Source: Microcella sp.
GTDB lineage: Bacteria > Actinomycetota > Actinomycetes > Actinomycetales > Microbacteriaceae
NCBI RefSeq assembly: GCF_019739195.1
Contig: NZ_JAHHDS010000003.1
Span: 496,001 to 560,000, forward strand
Length of the DNA: 64,000 nt
Direction of reading: 5' to 3'
The notes below the pieces were generated by a model. It did no database searches and was not told the origin of the DNA. It saw only the letters and a list, made by a program, of their open reading frames with translations. Made by a program: the position numbers and the translations under genes. Numbering within the stretch: position 1 is the first letter of the stretch; every line of letters starts with the position of its first letter. Shown in pieces: positions 1,222-24,369 of this stretch.

Positions 1222-2618
1222 GCACGAACTCCCCTGCCCGCCGCGCTGATGAGAGTAGAAGCATCGACTACCGGGGCCTGAGCTACTGGCACGCCACGGT
1301 CGAGGACGACTTGACGCCCCGCCTTGCCCTCGATGGCGACCTCGACACCGACGTCGCCATCGTGGGCGCAGGTCTCACCGGCCTGTGGACGGCGCACGAA
1401 CTGCTCAAGCGCGATCCCGGCTTGCGCATCACCGTTCTCGAGAAGAACATCGCGGGCTTCGGCGCGTCGGGTCGCAACGGCGGCTGGTGCAGCGCCCTGT
1501 TCCCCGCATCGACGACCGCGCTCGAGAAGAAGCACGGCCGCGAGGCCGCGCTCGCCATGCGGCGCGCGATGGTCTCCACGGTCGACGAGGTCGGCGCGGT
1601 GGCCGCTGCCGCGGGCATCGACTGCGACTACGAGCGCGGCGGCACGATCGTCTTCGCACGCAGCGATGCCCAGTGGCGCGCCGCGCAGCACGAGGTCGAC
1701 GTGGCGCGCGGCTACGGCGTCGATGCCCTCGAGCTCTGGGGCGCCGAGCGCGTCCATGCACGGGATGCCCGGGGTGCGGTCTACGACCCGGCCTGCGCCC
1801 GCCTGCATCCGGCCGCCCTCGTGCGCGGGCTCGCTCGCACTGTCGAGCAGCAGGGTGCGGTCATCCACGAGCAGACGACGGTCGAGAGCTGGCAGCCGGG
1901 CCTGGTGCGCACCGACCGCGGCGCCGTGCGCGCCCGTTACATCATCACCGCGCTCGAGGGCTACGGTGCCACCGTGGCGCAGTCGAAGCGGCGCATCCTG
2001 CCGCTCTACTCGCTTATGGTCGCGACGCAGCCGCTCGATGACGAGGTGTGGCAGGCAATGGGCATCGCGCACGGCCAGACCTTCTCAGACGGGCGGCACC
2101 TCGTCATCTACGGTCAGCGCACCGCCGACAACCGCATCGCTTTCGGCGGGCGCGGCGCTCGGTACCACTGGGGCAGCGCGATCCGCAGCGAGTACGACCG
2201 CGTCGAGCGCGTATTCGAGCACCTCGTCGCCACTCTGCACGAGCTCTTTCCACAGCTGCCGCCGCTCGAGGTCGAGCACGCCTGGGGCGGACCGCTCGGG
2301 GTGCCGCGCGACTGGCACGCGAGCGTGACCTACGACCCCGATTCGGGGCTCGGCGGCGCCGGCGGCTATGTCGGCGATGGGCTGTCGACCACGAACCTCG
2401 CCGGCCGCACCCTCGCCGATCTCGTCACAGGGCGCGATACCGAGCTGACGCGGCTGCCGTGGGTGGGCCATCGCTCGCCATCGTGGGAGCCCGAGCCGCT
2501 GCGCTTCATCGGAGCGAACGCAGGGCTCGTCGCCATGACGGCTGCCGACGCCGAAGAGCGGGCGACCGGACGCGCGTCGCTCATCGCTCGCGCCATGGGC
2601 GGGCTCATCGGGCACTGA
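1218..2618 (+). CDS. FAD-dependent amine oxidoreductase (DAO family)
   Basis: A DAO-superfamily flavoprotein, probably oxidising an amine or amino acid. The FAD-binding Rossmann motif VAIVGAGLTGLWTAHELL sits near the N-terminus, followed by ASGRNGGW, and a C-terminal GGYVGDGLSTTNLAGRTLADL completes the FAD site. The start is uncertain. No ATG, GTG or TTG lies between the upstream stop and TTG 1311, yet the family N-terminus (SYWHATVEDD) begins before 1311. I therefore place the start at CTG 1218, which overlaps the aminotransferase TGA (CTGA) and gives 466 aa; TTG 1311 (435 aa) is the alternative. It is probably cotranscribed and coupled with the aminotransferase, forming a two-step amine-degradation unit. 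Confidence 0.8.
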   Translation: MSTNSPARRADESRSIDYRGLSYWHATVEDDLTPRLALDGDLDTDVAIVGAGLTGLWTAHELLKRDPGLRITVLEKNIAGFGASGRNGGWCSALFPASTTALEKKHGREAALAMRRAMVSTVDEVGAVAAAAGIDCDYERGGTIVFARSDAQWRAAQHEVDVARGYGVDALELWGAERVHARDARGAVYDPACARLHPAALVRGLARTVEQQGAVIHEQTTVESWQPGLVRTDRGAVRARYIITALEGYGATVAQSKRRILPLYSLMVATQPLDDEVWQAMGIAHGQTFSDGRHLVIYGQRTADNRIAFGGRGARYHWGSAIRSEYDRVERVFEHLVATLHELFPQLPPLEVEHAWGGPLGVPRDWHASVTYDPDSGLGGAGGYVGDGLSTTNLAGRTLADLVTGRDTELTRLPWVGHRSPSWEPEPLRFIGANAGLVAMTAADAEERATGRASLIARAMGGLIGH

Positions 2619-16599: not shown

Positions 16600-17273
16600 G
16601 CCACAAGCTCCGCGCCGACGACGCGGGCGATCTCGTCGGCGGGGATAACGCCTTGCCGCACGATGCGCAGTTTGCCCTCGGGCAGATGCAGGTTGGTGGC
16701 GTCGACGATCGTCGAGGCCTGGTCGGCGCCCGGCTCGACCTCGACACCGACCGTGCCGCCGTCGAGGTACACGCTTACCCGGTCGCCGAGCATCGTCAGC
16801 GCGTCAGCCGCGGTGCGGGCGGCGGGCATCCCGCTGATATTGGCGCTTGAGACGGCGAGGGGGCCGGTGTCGGCGAGCAGGTGCAGGGCGTGGCGGTTGT
16901 CGGGCATGCGCAGGGCGACGGTGCCCTTGGTCTCGCCGAGATCCCACAGCAGAGACTCGCGGGCCTCGACGATGACGGTGAGACCGCCCGGCCAGAACTC
17001 TTTCACGAGCTTCTCGACCGCCTCGGGCACGTTCTCGGCGAGTGCGTTGAGGGTCGGGATGCCCGGAATGAGCACGGGCGGCGGTGCATCGCGGCCCCGC
17101 TCTTTCGCATCGAGCAACCTCTGCACGGCCTCGGCGCGGAAGGCATCGGCCGCGAGGCCGTAGACGGTGTCGGTCGGCAGCACGACGAGCTCGCCCCGGC
17201 CGATGGCGCCACGTGCCGCCCGCAGACCCTCGAGCAGCTCGCTCTCGATCGAGCAGTCGTACACGGCGGTCAT
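16596..17273 (-). CDS. tsaC: L-threonylcarbamoyladenylate synthase (YrdC/Sua5 domain)
   Basis: A 225-aa YrdC-domain enzyme making threonylcarbamoyl-AMP from threonine, bicarbonate and ATP, the first step of tRNA t6A37 formation. The family signature is GELVVLPTDTVYGLAADAF followed by KERGRDAPPPVLIPG and GPLAVSSANISGMPAARTA. It is the short form without the C-terminal Sua5 domain. The start is ATG 17273 (MTAVYDCSIESE); a TACGAT -10 (17283-17288, minus strand) lies 9 bases before it. It usually adjoins prmC in this family; here about 3 kb of other genes separate them. Confidence 0.93.
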   Translation of the reverse strand: MTAVYDCSIESELLEGLRAARGAIGRGELVVLPTDTVYGLAADAFRAEAVQRLLDAKERGRDAPPPVLIPGIPTLNALAENVPEAVEKLVKEFWPGGLTVIVEARESLLWDLGETKGTVALRMPDNRHALHLLADTGPLAVSSANISGMPAARTAADALTMLGDRVSVYLDGGTVGVEVEPGADQASTIVDATNLHLPEGKLRIVRQGVIPADEIARVVGAELVA

Positions 17274-17307
17274 GATGCGTTCATCGTACTGGGGCAGACT
17301 GAGGGGC

Positions 17308-17931
17308 GTGACCCTGCTCTTCGTGTTCGACATGGACGACGTTCTCTACGACTACGACTGGCGCGCGCGCATGGCAGAGCTCACCGAGATCACCGGCCAC
17401 GACCTGCACGAGCTGCGCCGACGATGGTGGATCAGCGGCCTGGAGTGGAAGGCCGAAGCCGGCGACCCGAGCGACCCTGACGAATACCTCGCTCGCGTGG
17501 CAGGCGTGATCGGGGCTGAGATCTCGCGCGAGGAGTGGGTGCGCATCCGCTCAGAGGCAACGAACGCGCGGCCCGCCGCCCTCGACGCCGTGCGCCGCGC
17601 AGCCGAGCTCGGGCAAGTCGCTCTTCTCACGAACAACGGCATCCTCATCCACCATCACCTTCACGAGGTGGCGGCTGAGCTCGTACCCATCATGGGGCGC
17701 GAGAACCTGCATGCCTCGGCGTTCTTCGGTGCACGGAAGCCCGACCCGGTCGTCTTCGAGCGCGTGCTCGCCCACTACGGGGCCGCGGCTACTGACACGT
17801 TCTTCGCCGACGATCTCGTCGAGAATGTCGCCGGCGCCGCGTCGATCGGCATCACCGGCCACCTCTACGTGGACGAGGCCTCGCTGCTCGCGGCGATCGA
17901 GGCCTTCGCCGCCGAGGCCCGCGCCGCGTAG
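17308..17931 (+). CDS. HAD-family hydrolase
   Basis: A 207-aa haloacid dehalogenase-superfamily phosphatase with a helical cap (subclass I). Motif I is FVFDMDDVLYDYD with both catalytic aspartates, motif II LLTNNG, motif III lysine in ARKPDPVVFERVL, and motif IV FFADDLVENVAGA. The substrate is unknown. GTG 17308 is taken because MTLLFVFDMDD is a normal HAD N-terminus; GAGGGG lies only 2 bases upstream. It is divergent from tsaC (34 bases between starts) and precedes the carboxyethylornithine-synthase-like gene, which has its own -10. Confidence 0.85.
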   Translation: MTLLFVFDMDDVLYDYDWRARMAELTEITGHDLHELRRRWWISGLEWKAEAGDPSDPDEYLARVAGVIGAEISREEWVRIRSEATNARPAALDAVRRAAELGQVALLTNNGILIHHHLHEVAAELVPIMGRENLHASAFFGARKPDPVVFERVLAHYGAAATDTFFADDLVENVAGAASIGITGHLYVDEASLLAAIEAFAAEARAA

Positions 17932-17962
17932 CCCTGCGAGCGGGCGCCACGACGGCTCGCTC

Positions 17963-17968
17963 TACTGT
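17963..17968 (+). promoter_or_regulatory. -10 box of a probable leaderless transcript
   Basis: TACTGT lies 5 bases before ATG 17974 and no ribosome binding site is present, suggesting a leaderless mRNA for the carboxyethylornithine-synthase-like gene. Confidence 0.4.
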
Positions 17969-17973
17969 GGGGT

Positions 17974-19137
17974 ATGACCTCACCCGACCCTGCACCCGCC
18001 CTGCTGCACCTCGGCGTGATGGCGAACTCGCGCAAACCCGACGAGCGGCGCCTGCCGATCCACCCCGGCCACCTCGAACGCATCTACCCCGATCTGCGCG
18101 CGCACATGACTCTCGAGCGCGGTTACGGTGCGCGGTTCGGCATCGCGGATGCTGAGCTCGAGCCCCTCGTCGCCGGGATAGCCGACCGTGCTGAGGTGAT
18201 CGCCCGTTCTGACGTCGTGCTGCTGCCGAAGCCACAGGCTTCCGATCTGGCTGACCTGCGCGACGGCCAGGTGCTGTGGGGCTGGCCGCACTGCGTGCAA
18301 GACCGTGCGATCACCCAGCTCGCGATCGACAAGGGCCTGACGCTCATCGCGTGGGAGGCCATGAACCACTGGCGGGATGACGGCAGCTTCGGGCTGCACG
18401 TCTTTCACAAGAACAACGAGCTCGCCGGCTACTGCTCCGTGATTCACGGCCTCGAGCTGTGCGGCTCGACGGGCGACTACGGCCGCCGCCTGACCGCGGT
18501 CGTGATCGGGTTCGGCGCGACCGCGCGCGGTGCGGTGACGGCGCTCAATGCGCACGGCATCCACGATGTGCGCGTGCTCACGAATCGCGACATCGCCGCG
18601 GTCAGCGCACCCATCCCCTCCGTCGACATCGTGCAATTCGAGCACGACGACGACCCCGCTATCGGCAGCACGGTCAACACCGACGACGGGCCGGTCGCAC
18701 TCGCGGCCTATCTCGCCGAGAACGACATCGTCGTCAACTGCACGCTGCAAGACCCGAACGCTCCCCTGACCTATCTGGAGCTCGACGACCTCGACGCCTT
18801 CCGGCCGGGCAGCCTCATCATCGACGTGTCGATCGACGAAGGCATGGGGTTCAGCTGGGCACGGCCCACCTCGTTCGCCGATCCGATGTTCACGGTCGGC
18901 GACTCGACGAACTACTACGCCGTCGACCACAGCCCCTCCCTGCTCTGGAACTCGACGACGTGGGAGATCAGCGAAGCGCTCATGCCCTTCTTGCGCGCGG
19001 TCATGGAGGGCCCGGCGTCGTGGGCCGACTCCGACACGATCACGCGTGCGATCGAGATCGAGGATGGCCGGGTGCGCAACGAGGCGATCCTGACGTTCCA
19101 GGGGCGGACTGCGGAGTACCCGTACGAAGTCGCGTAA
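17974..19137 (+). CDS. N5-(carboxyethyl)ornithine synthase-like dehydrogenase
   Basis: A 387-aa member of the alanine dehydrogenase/saccharopine dehydrogenase-like fold. The N-terminal block LGVMANSRKPDERRLPIHPG matches N5-(L-1-carboxyethyl)-L-ornithine synthase, an enzyme known from lactococci that reductively joins pyruvate to ornithine with NADPH. The nucleotide-binding motif is VVIGFGATARGAVTAL, and IIDVSIDEGMGFSWARPT is also conserved in the family. The true substrate here is not proven. It lies beside a HAD hydrolase and, convergently, a toxin-antitoxin-like unit, in a block inserted between tsaC and prmC. Confidence 0.8.
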   Translation: MTSPDPAPALLHLGVMANSRKPDERRLPIHPGHLERIYPDLRAHMTLERGYGARFGIADAELEPLVAGIADRAEVIARSDVVLLPKPQASDLADLRDGQVLWGWPHCVQDRAITQLAIDKGLTLIAWEAMNHWRDDGSFGLHVFHKNNELAGYCSVIHGLELCGSTGDYGRRLTAVVIGFGATARGAVTALNAHGIHDVRVLTNRDIAAVSAPIPSVDIVQFEHDDDPAIGSTVNTDDGPVALAAYLAENDIVVNCTLQDPNAPLTYLELDDLDAFRPGSLIIDVSIDEGMGFSWARPTSFADPMFTVGDSTNYYAVDHSPSLLWNSTTWEISEALMPFLRAVMEGPASWADSDTITRAIEIEDGRVRNEAILTFQGRTAEYPYEVA

Positions 19138-19154
19138 GCATGTAGTCGCCGGTG

Positions 19155-19442
19155 TCAGCCGGAGCCTGCAGCTACGGCGACAATCAGCACTCCAAGGCCA
19201 ACGGTGAAAACCACGAGCACCGAGCCGAGAACGCGCGGAAGCGACGATGGCGTCGGCCCGGAGCCTCGTCGGTTGAACCACATGTCGTGTTTCATCTGGC
19301 TACGGTCCATGTAGCGTCGAGCATCGTCGGGAAACGTGATCACCCACACACCGACAGCACAGAAGCCGACCAAGACAAGTAGCAAGGGAAGGGCCACGGC
19401 CCAATCTCGGACGTCGAGCGTCTGCGCCGCGGCCGCGATCAC
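19155..19442 (-). CDS. Small two-helix membrane protein, unknown function
   Basis: A 95-aa protein with two membrane helices (about residues 15-36, VALPLLLVLVGFCAVGVWVI, and 69-91, LGSVLVVFTVGLGVLIVAVA) joined by a charged loop (DDARRYMDRSQMKHDMWFNR), with no family I recognise. The GTG start overlaps the stop of the HepT-like gene (GTGA, 19439-19442), so it is translationally coupled to that gene and is likely the third member of the module. Alternatively it is an unrelated passenger. The convergent gene on the other side ends 17 bases away. Confidence 0.65.
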   Translation of the reverse strand: MIAAAAQTLDVRDWAVALPLLLVLVGFCAVGVWVITFPDDARRYMDRSQMKHDMWFNRRGSGPTPSSLPRVLGSVLVVFTVGLGVLIVAVAAGSG

Positions 19443-19837
19443 GAGTCTTCTGCCAGGAGCCGGGCAACCATCGCCGGGATGCGGATGGTCACTGCGGCCC
19501 AGAAGAGGTCGTCGTTCATGCCGACGTAGCCGGCGTGCGCGGCGATGTTTCGCGTGGCCTTGATCGCGGTGATCTCGTCAGCCGACAGGTTCTCGGCGAG
19601 TCCAGCAAACTCTGACCGCTCGAGCAGCGCCGCGAGACGGATGACGACCATGCTCGCCACGTCGTAGTGGGGCGCTCCCTCCGCGAAAGACTCGCGACCC
19701 GTCTCGATGACGGAATCGCATCGTTGAACGATGCGCTGCAGCTCGTTCCGGATGTTCTCGGCGTCCGTGTACGCACGTCGATCGCTATCGCTTCGTGGCC
19801 GCGGCTCGAAACGGCGTGTGTCGCCCGACTCGGTCAC
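19439..19837 (-). CDS. HepT-like (DUF86-type) protein, putative RNase toxin
   Basis: A 132-aa all-helical protein resembling HepT toxins, HEPN-type ribonucleases of MntA-HepT (type VII) systems. The catalytic block is KATRNIAAHAGYVGMND: Arg96, His101 and Tyr104. Classic HepT has Rx4HxY, whereas here one extra residue separates His and Tyr (Rx4HxxY). In MntA-HepT the tyrosine is polyadenylylated by the antitoxin, so this spacing matters. It starts 4 bases inside the HTH-nucleotidyltransferase gene and ends 4 bases inside the membrane-protein gene, so all three are coupled. An inactive or substrate-shifted HEPN protein is possible. Confidence 0.75.
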   Translation of the reverse strand: MTESGDTRRFEPRPRSDSDRRAYTDAENIRNELQRIVQRCDSVIETGRESFAEGAPHYDVASMVVIRLAALLERSEFAGLAENLSADEITAIKATRNIAAHAGYVGMNDDLFWAAVTIRIPAMVARLLAEDS

Positions 19838-20304
19838 AGCGCGACCGCCTCGAGTGCTGCCTGTGCGGCCTGCGGAGAGTCGGCGGTGTCCGTGACCACG
19901 TCGACCGGGAACCCGGTCAAGGCGCGCACCTCCTCCGCAAACAGCGCCAGGTCGAAGAGGTCGACCCGCGGGCCGGCCGACACGATGAGATCAATGTCGC
20001 TGTCGAAGTGGTCTTCGCCCCGGACGGTCGAGCCGAACACCCGAACCCGCTCGATCCCCCGATGTGCCGCCAGCGCGGTGATCTGATCGGCGAAATCGGC
20101 AAGCGGCAGCGACGGGCGATAGTCGGCCGCACGCAGCACTCGCTCGAGCATCTCGTCTGAGGCACTGCGCGTGCCCTTCTCCATCTGCGCGAGGCTCGGC
20201 TGGCTGATGCCCGCCCGTCGTGCGAGCTCGCTCTGAGTGAGCCCGGCGTCGAGTCGCGCCCGGCGGATGAGGTCGCCGGGCTGCGTCGTCGAGAAGCGAG
20301 CCAT
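19834..20304 (-). CDS. XRE HTH - MNT nucleotidyltransferase fusion, putative antitoxin
   Basis: A 156-aa protein with two domains. Residues about 10-62 are an XRE helix-turn-helix (IRRARLDAGLTQSELARRAG, ISQPSLAQMEKG). Residues about 75-150 are a minimal nucleotidyltransferase with GSTVRG at 91-96, Asp103/Asp105 in SDIDLIV, and a third Asp at 135 (FPVDVV). MNT proteins act as antitoxins by AMPylating HepT. The fusion suggests the antitoxin also represses its own promoter, and an inverted repeat lies just before the start (20311-20331). It is the first gene of the three-gene unit. Confidence 0.85.
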   Translation of the reverse strand: MARFSTTQPGDLIRRARLDAGLTQSELARRAGISQPSLAQMEKGTRSASDEMLERVLRAADYRPSLPLADFADQITALAAHRGIERVRVFGSTVRGEDHFDSDIDLIVSAGPRVDLFDLALFAEEVRALTGFPVDVVTDTADSPQAAQAALEAVAL

Positions 20305-20310
20305 GCAGTC

Positions 20311-20331
20311 AATATATCACCGCGCTATATT
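20311..20331. promoter_or_regulatory. Inverted-repeat operator/promoter of the TA-like operon
   Basis: AATATA (20311-20316), 9-base spacer, TATATT (20326-20331): perfect 6-bp arms in an AT-rich patch 7 bases before the HTH-MNT start, unlike the GC-rich surroundings. It fits a binding site for the XRE domain overlapping the -10 of its own gene. Confidence 0.55.
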
Positions 20332-20351
20332 CCAGAGAAGGGGATGCGGCG

Positions 20352-21215
20352 TTACCGGGTGGCGGTGGTCGCGCGGTCGCGGCCGAGCAGGTCACGGTGC
20401 GAGGCCACCGCAGTGAAGCCGCCCGCGCGCACAAGGGCCGCGATGGGTTCGGCCTGCAGCTCGCCGTGCTCGATCACGAGGGTGCCGCCGGGTCGCAGCA
20501 GGCGGTGCGCTGTGACGACGAGCGCGCGCACGGCGTCCAGGCCGTCGGCACCCGAGTAGAGAGCGTGCTCGGGGTCGAAGAGGCGCACCTCGGGGTCGCG
20601 AGGAACCGCACCCACGGGGATGTAGGGCGGGTTGGAGGCGACGACGTCGACGGTGCCGTCGAGCTCGGGGAGAGCATCCGCGAGATCGGCGAAGACGAGC
20701 CGCACCCTGTCGTCGCCGTAGCGGCGCACGTTGCGGGTGGTCCAGACGAAGGCCTGCGGAGAGTTCTCGACGGCGACGACCTGGGCATGCGGCACCTCGA
20801 CTGCCATAGCGAGGGCGATCGCTCCGCTGCCGCTGCCGAGGTCGACCGCGAGGGGCTGCGAGCTCGCGACGGCGGCGAGGGCGTCGATCGCGAACTGCAC
20901 GACGAGCTCGGTCTCGGGCCTCGGCACGAAGACGCCCGGGCCGACGGCGAGCTCGAGGGTGCGGAACGGCGCGACGCCGGTGATGTGCTGCACGGGCTCG
21001 CGCAGGGCACGCCGCTCGATGAACTCGGTGACAGTCATGACCTGCTCGGCGTCGACGGGCGCGCCGACGAGAGCCTTGGCCTGCACCTGCCCGCGGCTCA
21101 TGCCGAGCACGTGCCCGATGAGCAGGTCGGCGTCGGCCTCGGGGGTCGGCACGCCAGCCTCGCCGAGCACCCGGATGGCGTGGTCGCGCAGAGCGGCGAG
21201 GTCGGGGATGCTCAC
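20352..21215 (-). CDS. prmC: Release factor glutamine methyltransferase
   Basis: A 287-aa SAM-dependent N5-glutamine methyltransferase that methylates the GGQ glutamine of release factors. The SAM motif is AVDLGSGSGAIALAMA and the catalytic DVVASNPPYIPVG (NPPY) is present; the N-terminal helical substrate domain precedes it. I use GTG 21215 (VSIPDLAALRDHA), 16 bases after the prfA stop; the open frame continues upstream into prfA, but without family similarity. No clear ribosome binding site is seen. It lies downstream of its substrate gene prfA, the usual arrangement. Confidence 0.95.
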   Translation of the reverse strand: MSIPDLAALRDHAIRVLGEAGVPTPEADADLLIGHVLGMSRGQVQAKALVGAPVDAEQVMTVTEFIERRALREPVQHITGVAPFRTLELAVGPGVFVPRPETELVVQFAIDALAAVASSQPLAVDLGSGSGAIALAMAVEVPHAQVVAVENSPQAFVWTTRNVRRYGDDRVRLVFADLADALPELDGTVDVVASNPPYIPVGAVPRDPEVRLFDPEHALYSGADGLDAVRALVVTAHRLLRPGGTLVIEHGELQAEPIAALVRAGGFTAVASHRDLLGRDRATTATR

Positions 21216-21231
21216 GGGAGGGCGGAGCGGG

Positions 21232-22314
21232 TCAGGCTTCGGTGTCGCCGAGGGCGTCGAGACGCGCCTCTTCGTCGGCCTGGATGCACGACTCGACGAC
21301 CGGACCAAGCGCCCCGTTCATGACGGTGTCGAGGTTGTAGGCCTTGTAGCCCGTGCGGTGGTCAGCGATGCGGTTCTCGGGAAAGTTGTAGGTGCGGATG
21401 CGCTCCGAACGGTCCATGCCGCGAATCTGGCTCTTGCGGGCATCGCTGGCGACAGCATCCCGTTCCTCCTGCTGACGCGCGAGAATACGGGCCCGCAGCA
21501 CGCGCATGGCTGCCTCGCGGTTCTGAAGCTGGCTCTTCTCGTTCTGCATCGACACGACGATGCCGGTCGGCAGGTGGGTGATGCGCACGGCCGAGTCGGT
21601 CGTGTTGACCGACTGCCCGCCGGGGCCGCTCGAGCGGTAGACATCGATCTTGAGGTCGTTCTGGTTGATGTCGACCTCTTCGGGCTCGTCGACCTCGGGA
21701 AAGACGAGCACGCCGGTCGTGGAGGTGTGGATGCGCCCCTGCGACTCTGTCGCCGGCACGCGCTGCACGCGGTGCACGCCGCCCTCGTACTTCAGGTTCG
21801 CCCACGGGCCCTGAGCAGGGTCGCTCGAGGTGCCCTTGATAGCGACCTGCACGTCTTTGTAGCCGCCCATGTCGCTGCGCGTCGCGTCGAGCAGCTCGAC
21901 CTTCCAGCCCTTCGACTCGGCGTAGTAGCTGTACATGCGCAGCAGGTCCGCCGCGAACAGCGCCGACTCTTCGCCGCCCTCGCCGCCCTTGATCTCCATG
22001 ATCACGTCGCGCCCGTCGTCGGGGTCGCGCGGAATCAGCAGGCGCCGCAGCTTCTCGGCGCGCTCGGTGAGCGCCTGCTCGAGCGAGGGCACCTCGTCAG
22101 CGAAGGCCTCGTCGTCTTTCGCCAGCTCGCGCGCGGCGATGAGGTCTTCGTCGGCCTGCCGCCAGTTCTCGTAGGCCGCGACGATCTGGCTCAGCTCGGC
22201 ATAGCGCCGGTTGAGCTTCTTGGCGCGCGCGGCATCGGCGTGCACGGCGGGGTCGCCGAGCTGCTCTTGCAGTGCTTCGTGCTCGGCGATGAGTGAGTCG
22301 ACCGACTCGAACAT
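21232..22314 (-). CDS. prfA: Peptide chain release factor 1
   Basis: A 360-aa class I release factor ending translation at UAA and UAG. The GGQ motif is in [18 protein letters not shown], and the codon-recognition PAT tripeptide in [15 protein letters not shown] identifies RF1 rather than RF2 (which has SPF). The N-terminal [19 protein letters not shown] helix is normal. It follows rho (45-base gap) and precedes prmC on the minus strand. Confidence 0.98.
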
Positions 22315-22359
22315 GGAGTACTCCCTCGGGTCACACGCGCCGGAGCGCGCATGACGGCA

Positions 22360-24369
<2,010 letters not shown>

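Follow-up and report, generated by a model that had tools for sequence, protein, structure and literature searches.

A predicted MNT-HEPN toxin-antitoxin pair of Microcella in which the nucleotidyltransferase is fused to an XRE-type helix-turn-helix domain, with an exchangeable membrane gene downstream

The locus described here raises the question of how many of its genes form one system. In a 64 kb stretch of a Microcella sp. contig, which we refer to as the window, three short minus-strand genes are flanked by prmC on one side and by an alanine-dehydrogenase-like (AlaDH) gene on the other. The first-pass annotation read them as a three-part system consisting of an antitoxin that joins a helix-turn-helix (HTH) domain to a minimal nucleotidyltransferase (MNT), a HepT-like toxin and a two-helix membrane protein, with an AT-rich inverted repeat ahead of the genes through which the antitoxin would repress its own expression. 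The coordinates of the three genes are borne out, with 4-base overlaps at both junctions (gene 1/gene 2 and gene 2/gene 3), and the inverted repeat is indeed present upstream (Table 1). An Rfam scan of positions 17000-22500 gave no match.

Table 1. Positions of the module, its putative operator and the neighbouring AlaDH gene in the window
Feature	Position	Strand	Description
Gene 1	20304-19834	minus	156 aa, ATG start; predicted antitoxin and autorepressor
Gene 2	19837-19439	minus	132 aa, GTG start; HepT-like (HEPN) predicted RNase toxin
Gene 3	19442-19155	minus	95 aa, GTG start; membrane protein, 2 or 3 hydrophobic spans
Putative operator dyad AATATA-N9-TATATT	20311-20331	minus	6 nt before the gene 1 start codon
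Alanine-dehydrogenase-like (AlaDH) gene	17974-19137		

As had been proposed, gene 1 joins an HTH of the XRE type to a minimal nucleotidyltransferase. Residues 13-63 match HTH_3 (Pfam E 4.6e-13) and residues 81-140 match NTP_transf_2 (E 2e-8), both above the curated cut-offs, and each of the two families matches all 18 members of alignment A2. The MNT motif of Class I pairs, GSX10DXD, is present in the window as GS-x10-DID, the MNT gene lies immediately upstream of the HEPN gene as in the Class I order, and HTH_3 gives the antitoxin a DNA-binding domain, as in type II systems. A gene-1 profile match is found directly upstream of gene 2 at 60 of 60 loci (duplicates included here and in the counts that follow), spanning both HTH and MNT in 56 and consisting of the MNT part alone in two (L110 and L114). 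At L004 and L075, which are one and the same gene, the match is the HTH piece only because gene 1 is broken there; GSX10DXD is present in 58 loci, the remaining two being this broken gene. At this Arenivirga flava locus gene 1 falls into two frames (3634-3998 of L075), whereas gene 2 is open.

In a wider sample of the phylum, gene-1 matches at E <=1e-15 occur in 39 of 396 genomes, many of them to an MNT alone. Among ten loci chosen from that sample because the match reaches into the HTH, one of which (L123) comes from the same family as the window, nine contain GSX10DXD by our own pattern and five have a gene-2 profile match on the same strand (L121, L124, L125, L126 and L128), weak in L126 and L128. 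On the suggested role in phage defence, the analysis gave only a resemblance of the MNT domain of gene 1 to the PADLOC candidate PDC-S09 (E 1.2e-19), which serves as a label. Against the Hailong HalB nucleotidyltransferase gene 1 scores 11.8 bits where the cut-off is 190. A plasmid search with gene 1 returned a single match (34%), on a plasmid of Mycobacterium avium where no neighbouring gene is annotated as HEPN. The window's own genome has a further MNT domain (L150; contig C2, 168362-168631) that is close to the antitoxins of the HxY branch discussed below; the 2.6 kb read contain neither an HTH match nor a significant match to gene 2.

The reading of genes 1 and 2 as an MNT-HEPN module is likewise supported, with gene 2 as a divergent HepT-like protein. 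Alone it scores 16.5 bits, under the cut-off of 23.5, against the Pfam HepT-like family PF01934, which with PF08780 makes up the HEPN families of Class I pairs. Of the 22 sequences in alignment A1, 21, that of the window among them, reach E <=0.1 against PF01934 (best 4.4e-13). The motif Rx4HxxY had been numbered correctly as R96, H101 and Y104, and these residues are invariant in the 22 sequences, as are W113 and P121. An AlphaFold model of gene 2 built with 11 sequences has five helices (pLDDT 84.6) and places the motif in the later part of the helix spanning residues 86-106, in agreement with PMC3710099, which locates Rx4-6H where helix 3 ends. A search of the PDB with the gene-2 profile found no HEPN structure; it returned 50 sequences by chance, nearly all influenza haemagglutinin (best E 0.09), while a single-sequence search of the PDB gave one chance match and PADLOC, given all 22 A1 sequences, reported one stray match. 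Carriage of gene 2 by known plasmids or phages was ruled out, as there was no match at E 0.001 or at E 0.01.

The spacing of the tyrosine sets gene 2 apart. The Class I signature Rx4HxY is absent from the window, since one residue is inserted between the histidine and the tyrosine. Of the 53 distinct gene-2 sequences placed in a tree, 32 have HxxY, 17 have HxY and four are unscored by the pattern, including L100, which has Rx4HxY with a serine after the arginine. The HxxY sequences make up one side of a branch with support 76/84, recovered in 72% of bootstrap trees. On these alignments HxxY is a one-residue insertion that marks a single branch, although the tree includes the motif columns and so the count of one change leans toward clustering. 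An invariant glycine precedes the tyrosine in the eight sequences of alignment A4. Rx4H is kept in 51 of the 53 distinct sequences; catalytic residues are missing from L104 and L110. L104 keeps GY but has neither the arginine nor the histidine of Rx4H, and cysteine replaces the target tyrosine in L109 and L110, the latter also lacking the motif histidine. A second MNT-HEPN neighbourhood in the window's own genome (L119; contig C1, ~18048-18350) consists of an MNT frame that matches only the MNT half of the profile and a neighbouring HEPN-like gene broken by an in-frame stop inside the Rx4H...Y region.

As a single sequence gene 2 finds matches at E <=1e-3 in 17 of 249 genomes of the family, and as profile A1 at E 1e-5 in 82 of 396 genomes of the order. 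Thirty places from the order-wide A1 search were taken as loci, and a scan of genome contigs with profile A4 gave ten loci. Among 49 pairs that the first of two motif detectors recognized in 54 loci, 47 offer a start codon for gene 2 that gives a 4-nt overlap with gene 1. The two detectors differ slightly, the first having missed five pairs seen by the second, and the second served for the counts. The pairs outside Microcella number 46 that are distinct, 42 of them below 90% identity.

The sequence ahead of gene 1 provides further insight into how the pair may be controlled. AATATA-N9-TATATT is the only match in the 64 kb with two or fewer mismatches, where 0.01 would be expected. We compared 37 upstream regions whose gene 1 products are less than 75% identical to each other, with start codons chosen by rule, and in 28 of them the gap from the best dyad to the start codon is 5-11 nt; the same position was reached in 514 of 3700 mononucleotide shuffles (14%; binomial p 3e-17). 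Dyad symmetry alone gave a Fisher p of 2e-5 over 17 upstream regions with dinucleotide shuffles, and the window's own dyad a p of 0.065. The best dyad lies elsewhere in nine of the 37 regions, including that of the Microcella representative L002, where it is CGGTGATATATTCACCG; this second dyad overlaps AATATA-N9-TATATT, and its arms are perfect in four of seven Microcella genomes, the window not being among them. The inner ATAGC...GATAT of the window dyad and the ATAGC-N5-GCTAT of relatives are about equally far from the start. Upstream dyads of relatives include ATAGCACGTTGCTAT (Gulosibacter), TATAGCATGTAGCTATA (Brevibacterium), GATACCGTGCACGGTATC (L006), ATAGTGCACGCGTGCACTAT (L094) and GATAACACACTTGTTATC (L115), and by eye the letters within their ATA...TAT ends covary on both sides. 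The right arm of the window dyad overlaps a -10-like TATATT, which suggests that the gene 1 transcript has a near-leaderless start; a consensus promoter scan called no full -35/-10 promoter. The earlier suggestion of self-repression gains support from the conserved position of this predicted operator, and it is probable that the antitoxin switches off its own genes.

Type II toxin-antitoxin systems with HTH antitoxins of the HipB/HigA kind have a DNA-binding antitoxin and a dyad that overlaps its own promoter. Gene 1 has a weak NCBIfam likeness to these antitoxins and shares the HTH with them, and its candidate dyad would likewise overlap the promoter. As its neutralizing part is a nucleotidyltransferase, however, neutralization is predicted to be enzymatic, where that of type II systems is by protein binding alone.

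There is also a likeness to type VII MntA/HepT and to the Shewanella pair SO_3165/SO_3166, which consist of a GSX10DXD MNT upstream of a HEPN protein, in overlapping genes, the HEPN protein having Rx4H and a nearby conserved tyrosine (PMC7641770, PMC4621449). AMPylation of the tyrosine is reported for Class I pairs (PMC7641770). The Shewanella MNT SO_3165 is described as binding and repressing its own promoter, by EMSA and by a 1.6-fold effect on a lacZ fusion, and that promoter has palindromes near -10 and -35 (PMC4621449); the MNT is again called DNA-binding in PMC6929052, and Makarova 2009 had guessed at a DNA-binding component acting in trans (PMC2701414). Autorepression by an MNT as such is not new, being known from SO_3165 (PMC4621449). 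The differences are that SO_3165 is described as having no predicted DNA-binding domain, whereas here the MNT carries an XRE HTH at its N terminus; that among the relatives of our pair a dyad is repeatedly seen at one position ahead of gene 1; that the spacing here is HxxY rather than HxY; and that Microcella has an additional membrane gene. A Legionella HEPN-MNT pair, as presented in PMC11586414, also has an AMPylated tyrosine near Rx4H in the HEPN toxin and an MNT partner but differs in its HxY spacing, and the strings HTH, helix-turn-helix, DNA-binding and palindrom are absent from the main text of that paper. The Geobacillus MNT-HEPN (I) pair is proposed to belong to a three-component system, the third gene of which is a second MNT and not a membrane protein (PMC6929052). 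The actinobacterial nucleotidyltransferase/HEPN pair AWB99_RS04530/04535 of M. confluentis is reported as toxic and neutralized in M. smegmatis (PMC13284704) and resembles ours by that description. The portions of the literature on HEPN/MNT, HTH fusions and Microcella toxin-antitoxin systems that were covered describe no HTH-MNT antitoxin with a HEPN partner.

The third gene behaves differently. It matches no Pfam family above cut-off, and its dN/dS of ~0.36 against G263 indicates a real gene. Its description as a two-helix membrane protein holds as regards hydrophobicity, while the number of spans is two or three depending on the threshold (two in the close relative of gene 3 at L069, three in the window gene with another threshold), so that two helices are plausible. 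A prmC match (E <=1e-60) is found in 24 of 26 Microcella genomes, and the site next to it is occupied by the pair in seven, by gene 3 alone in one (G264), and by a HAD gene following prmC in 11, with an empty prmC-AlaDH junction in five (13-28 bases between matches, stop codons included). An AlaDH-like gene adjoins prmC, or the module behind prmC, in 12 of the 24 genomes and lies away from prmC in two further Microcella genomes.

Six of the seven Microcella pairs at this site carry a small hydrophobic or membrane gene in the slot, but not the same one: family A stands behind the pair in the window's genome (G000) and G263, family B (73 aa) in G254 and G260, and family C (82 and 79 aa) in G255 and G256, and in G235 the pair has no third gene. 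Microcella pacifica (L068) has the same module with a family-C third gene. Strong genus-wide matches are confined to G000, G263 and G264 for family A (plus two weak ones), to G254 and G260 for family B, and to G255 and G256 for family C (plus two weak ones inside long frames). The idea of a single detectable family uniting A, B and C was rejected on hhalign probabilities of 0.6, 1.0 and 0.04%, obtained with profiles of two to three sequences, with which remote kinship is possible. Outside the genus we looked for a same-strand frame of 45-150 aa with at least two hydrophobic spans, its start lying between -40 and +100 nt relative to the stop, and found none behind the 46 distinct pairs. The contrast between Microcella and the outside is blurred by a gene of Agromyces italicus (L074) that shares 4 nt with gene 2 and codes for a 401-aa protein with seven predicted spans, a 194-aa six-span frame at +75 behind gene 2 in L014, and a 91-aa one-span frame at +40 in L011. 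A single-sequence search with family A in the 249 family genomes gave only weak matches outside its own genome, the best at E 0.003. At L019 (G090; 1465-2046, minus strand) there is a tandem of two small hydrophobic genes, one of which bears a weak likeness to gene 3 (E 0.003), and 3' of the family-B gene L030 and L024 have in common, by eye, an imperfect inverted repeat of the CAACTCACACTG...GTGTGA type before the next gene. The same membrane gene recurs with the pair in one further genome, G263, and a gene of this kind stands behind none of the 46 pairs outside the genus. The membrane gene as a fixed part of the system was rejected on the swapping of three families without detectable homology in the slot, the empty slot of G235, family A without the pair in G264 and the absence from the 46 outside pairs, and the three-part system is not supported as originally proposed. 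Gene 3 is probably an exchangeable accessory of Microcella, with a putative link to the pair, rather than a core component.

Sequence comparisons suggest movement and exchange at this site. For G000-G263 the dN/dS values are 0.10, 0.21 and 0.36 for genes 1, 2 and 3, and for G254-G260 they are 0.13, 0.21 and 0.28; in G255-G256 genes 2 and 3 share a value of 0.21, so that the rise along the operon is not general. Several of the dS values are above 1. G263 gene 2 is nearest to that of G256 (89%) and its prmC to those of G000 and G260 (95%), and such conflict between the relatedness of genes 1 and 2 and that of prmC, together with the empty junctions, is indicative of mobile behaviour. Identity between G000 and G263 is 95-97% across the end of gene 2 and the start of gene 3 and falls to ~60% at the end of gene 3, a drop that suggests recombination. 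The type of third gene tracks neither prmC identity nor that of genes 1 and 2.

We consider it probable that the locus encodes an autoregulated, type VII-like MNT/HEPN toxin-antitoxin pair with a repressor domain, to which gene 3 is a swappable accessory. In this model gene 2 would be an RNase toxin acting through R96 and H101, and the nucleotidyltransferase of gene 1 would block it by putting AMP on Y104, moved one place along by the one-residue insertion. The HTH of gene 1 would repress the operon by binding to the dyad at the -10 box of a near-leaderless promoter, such that loss of gene 1 would both free the toxin and lift repression, and gene 3 would be a coupled, exchangeable membrane accessory, limited to Microcella in the searches made. 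Because Rx4HxY is absent we do not assign the pair strictly to Class I, but it most likely functions like a Class I member with a dedicated repressor domain. The same components could instead constitute a domesticated regulator, an HTH-MNT transcription factor set by its HEPN partner and devoid of toxicity, for which the HTH fusion, the conserved dyad, the degenerate active sites of L104 and L110 and the stronger constraint on gene 1 (the lower values in two genome pairs, against ~0.21 for gene 2 in three) can be cited. We regard this as quite improbable, given the near-complete retention of Rx4H and the patchy presence of the module, with junctions that lack it. The broken gene 1 beside an open gene 2, seen once (L004/L075), is poorly explained by either reading.

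For gene 3 itself there is a slightly better than even chance that it is a passenger at an insertion hotspot, the prmC junction, and functionally unlinked to the pair: family A occupies the same junction without the pair in G264, the junction is variable across the 24 genomes, and the type of third gene is independent of prmC relatedness, although the slot holds only small hydrophobic genes and four of the six overlap gene 2 by 4 nt. Those two features would be expected of a true three-part system with the membrane protein as effector, anchor or sensor and a slot under diversifying exchange, as would the strong matches to families B and C (two genomes each of 26), all of which stand behind a pair, and the third-gene dN/dS of 0.19-0.36. 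This is unlikely, as pair and membrane gene each occur alone in the genus, none of the 46 pairs outside it has such a gene, the three families lack detectable homology with the small profiles used, and linkage in a single genus could arise by recombination between shared flanks. Its more specific form, a Microcella tripartite system in which an MNT-controlled HEPN RNase is combined with swappable small membrane effectors or sensors drawn from unrelated families of like architecture, we consider improbable.

With the target tyrosine shifted by one residue, scans for the motif Rx4HxY of the kind described in PMC7641770 would miss this toxin branch. It lies within a large actinobacterial branch in which the nucleotidyltransferase is joined to an XRE repressor domain and a dyad recurs at the promoter. 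In the autoregulated pair that we favour, toxin modification and operon control would share one protein, and each would be separately removable by mutation.
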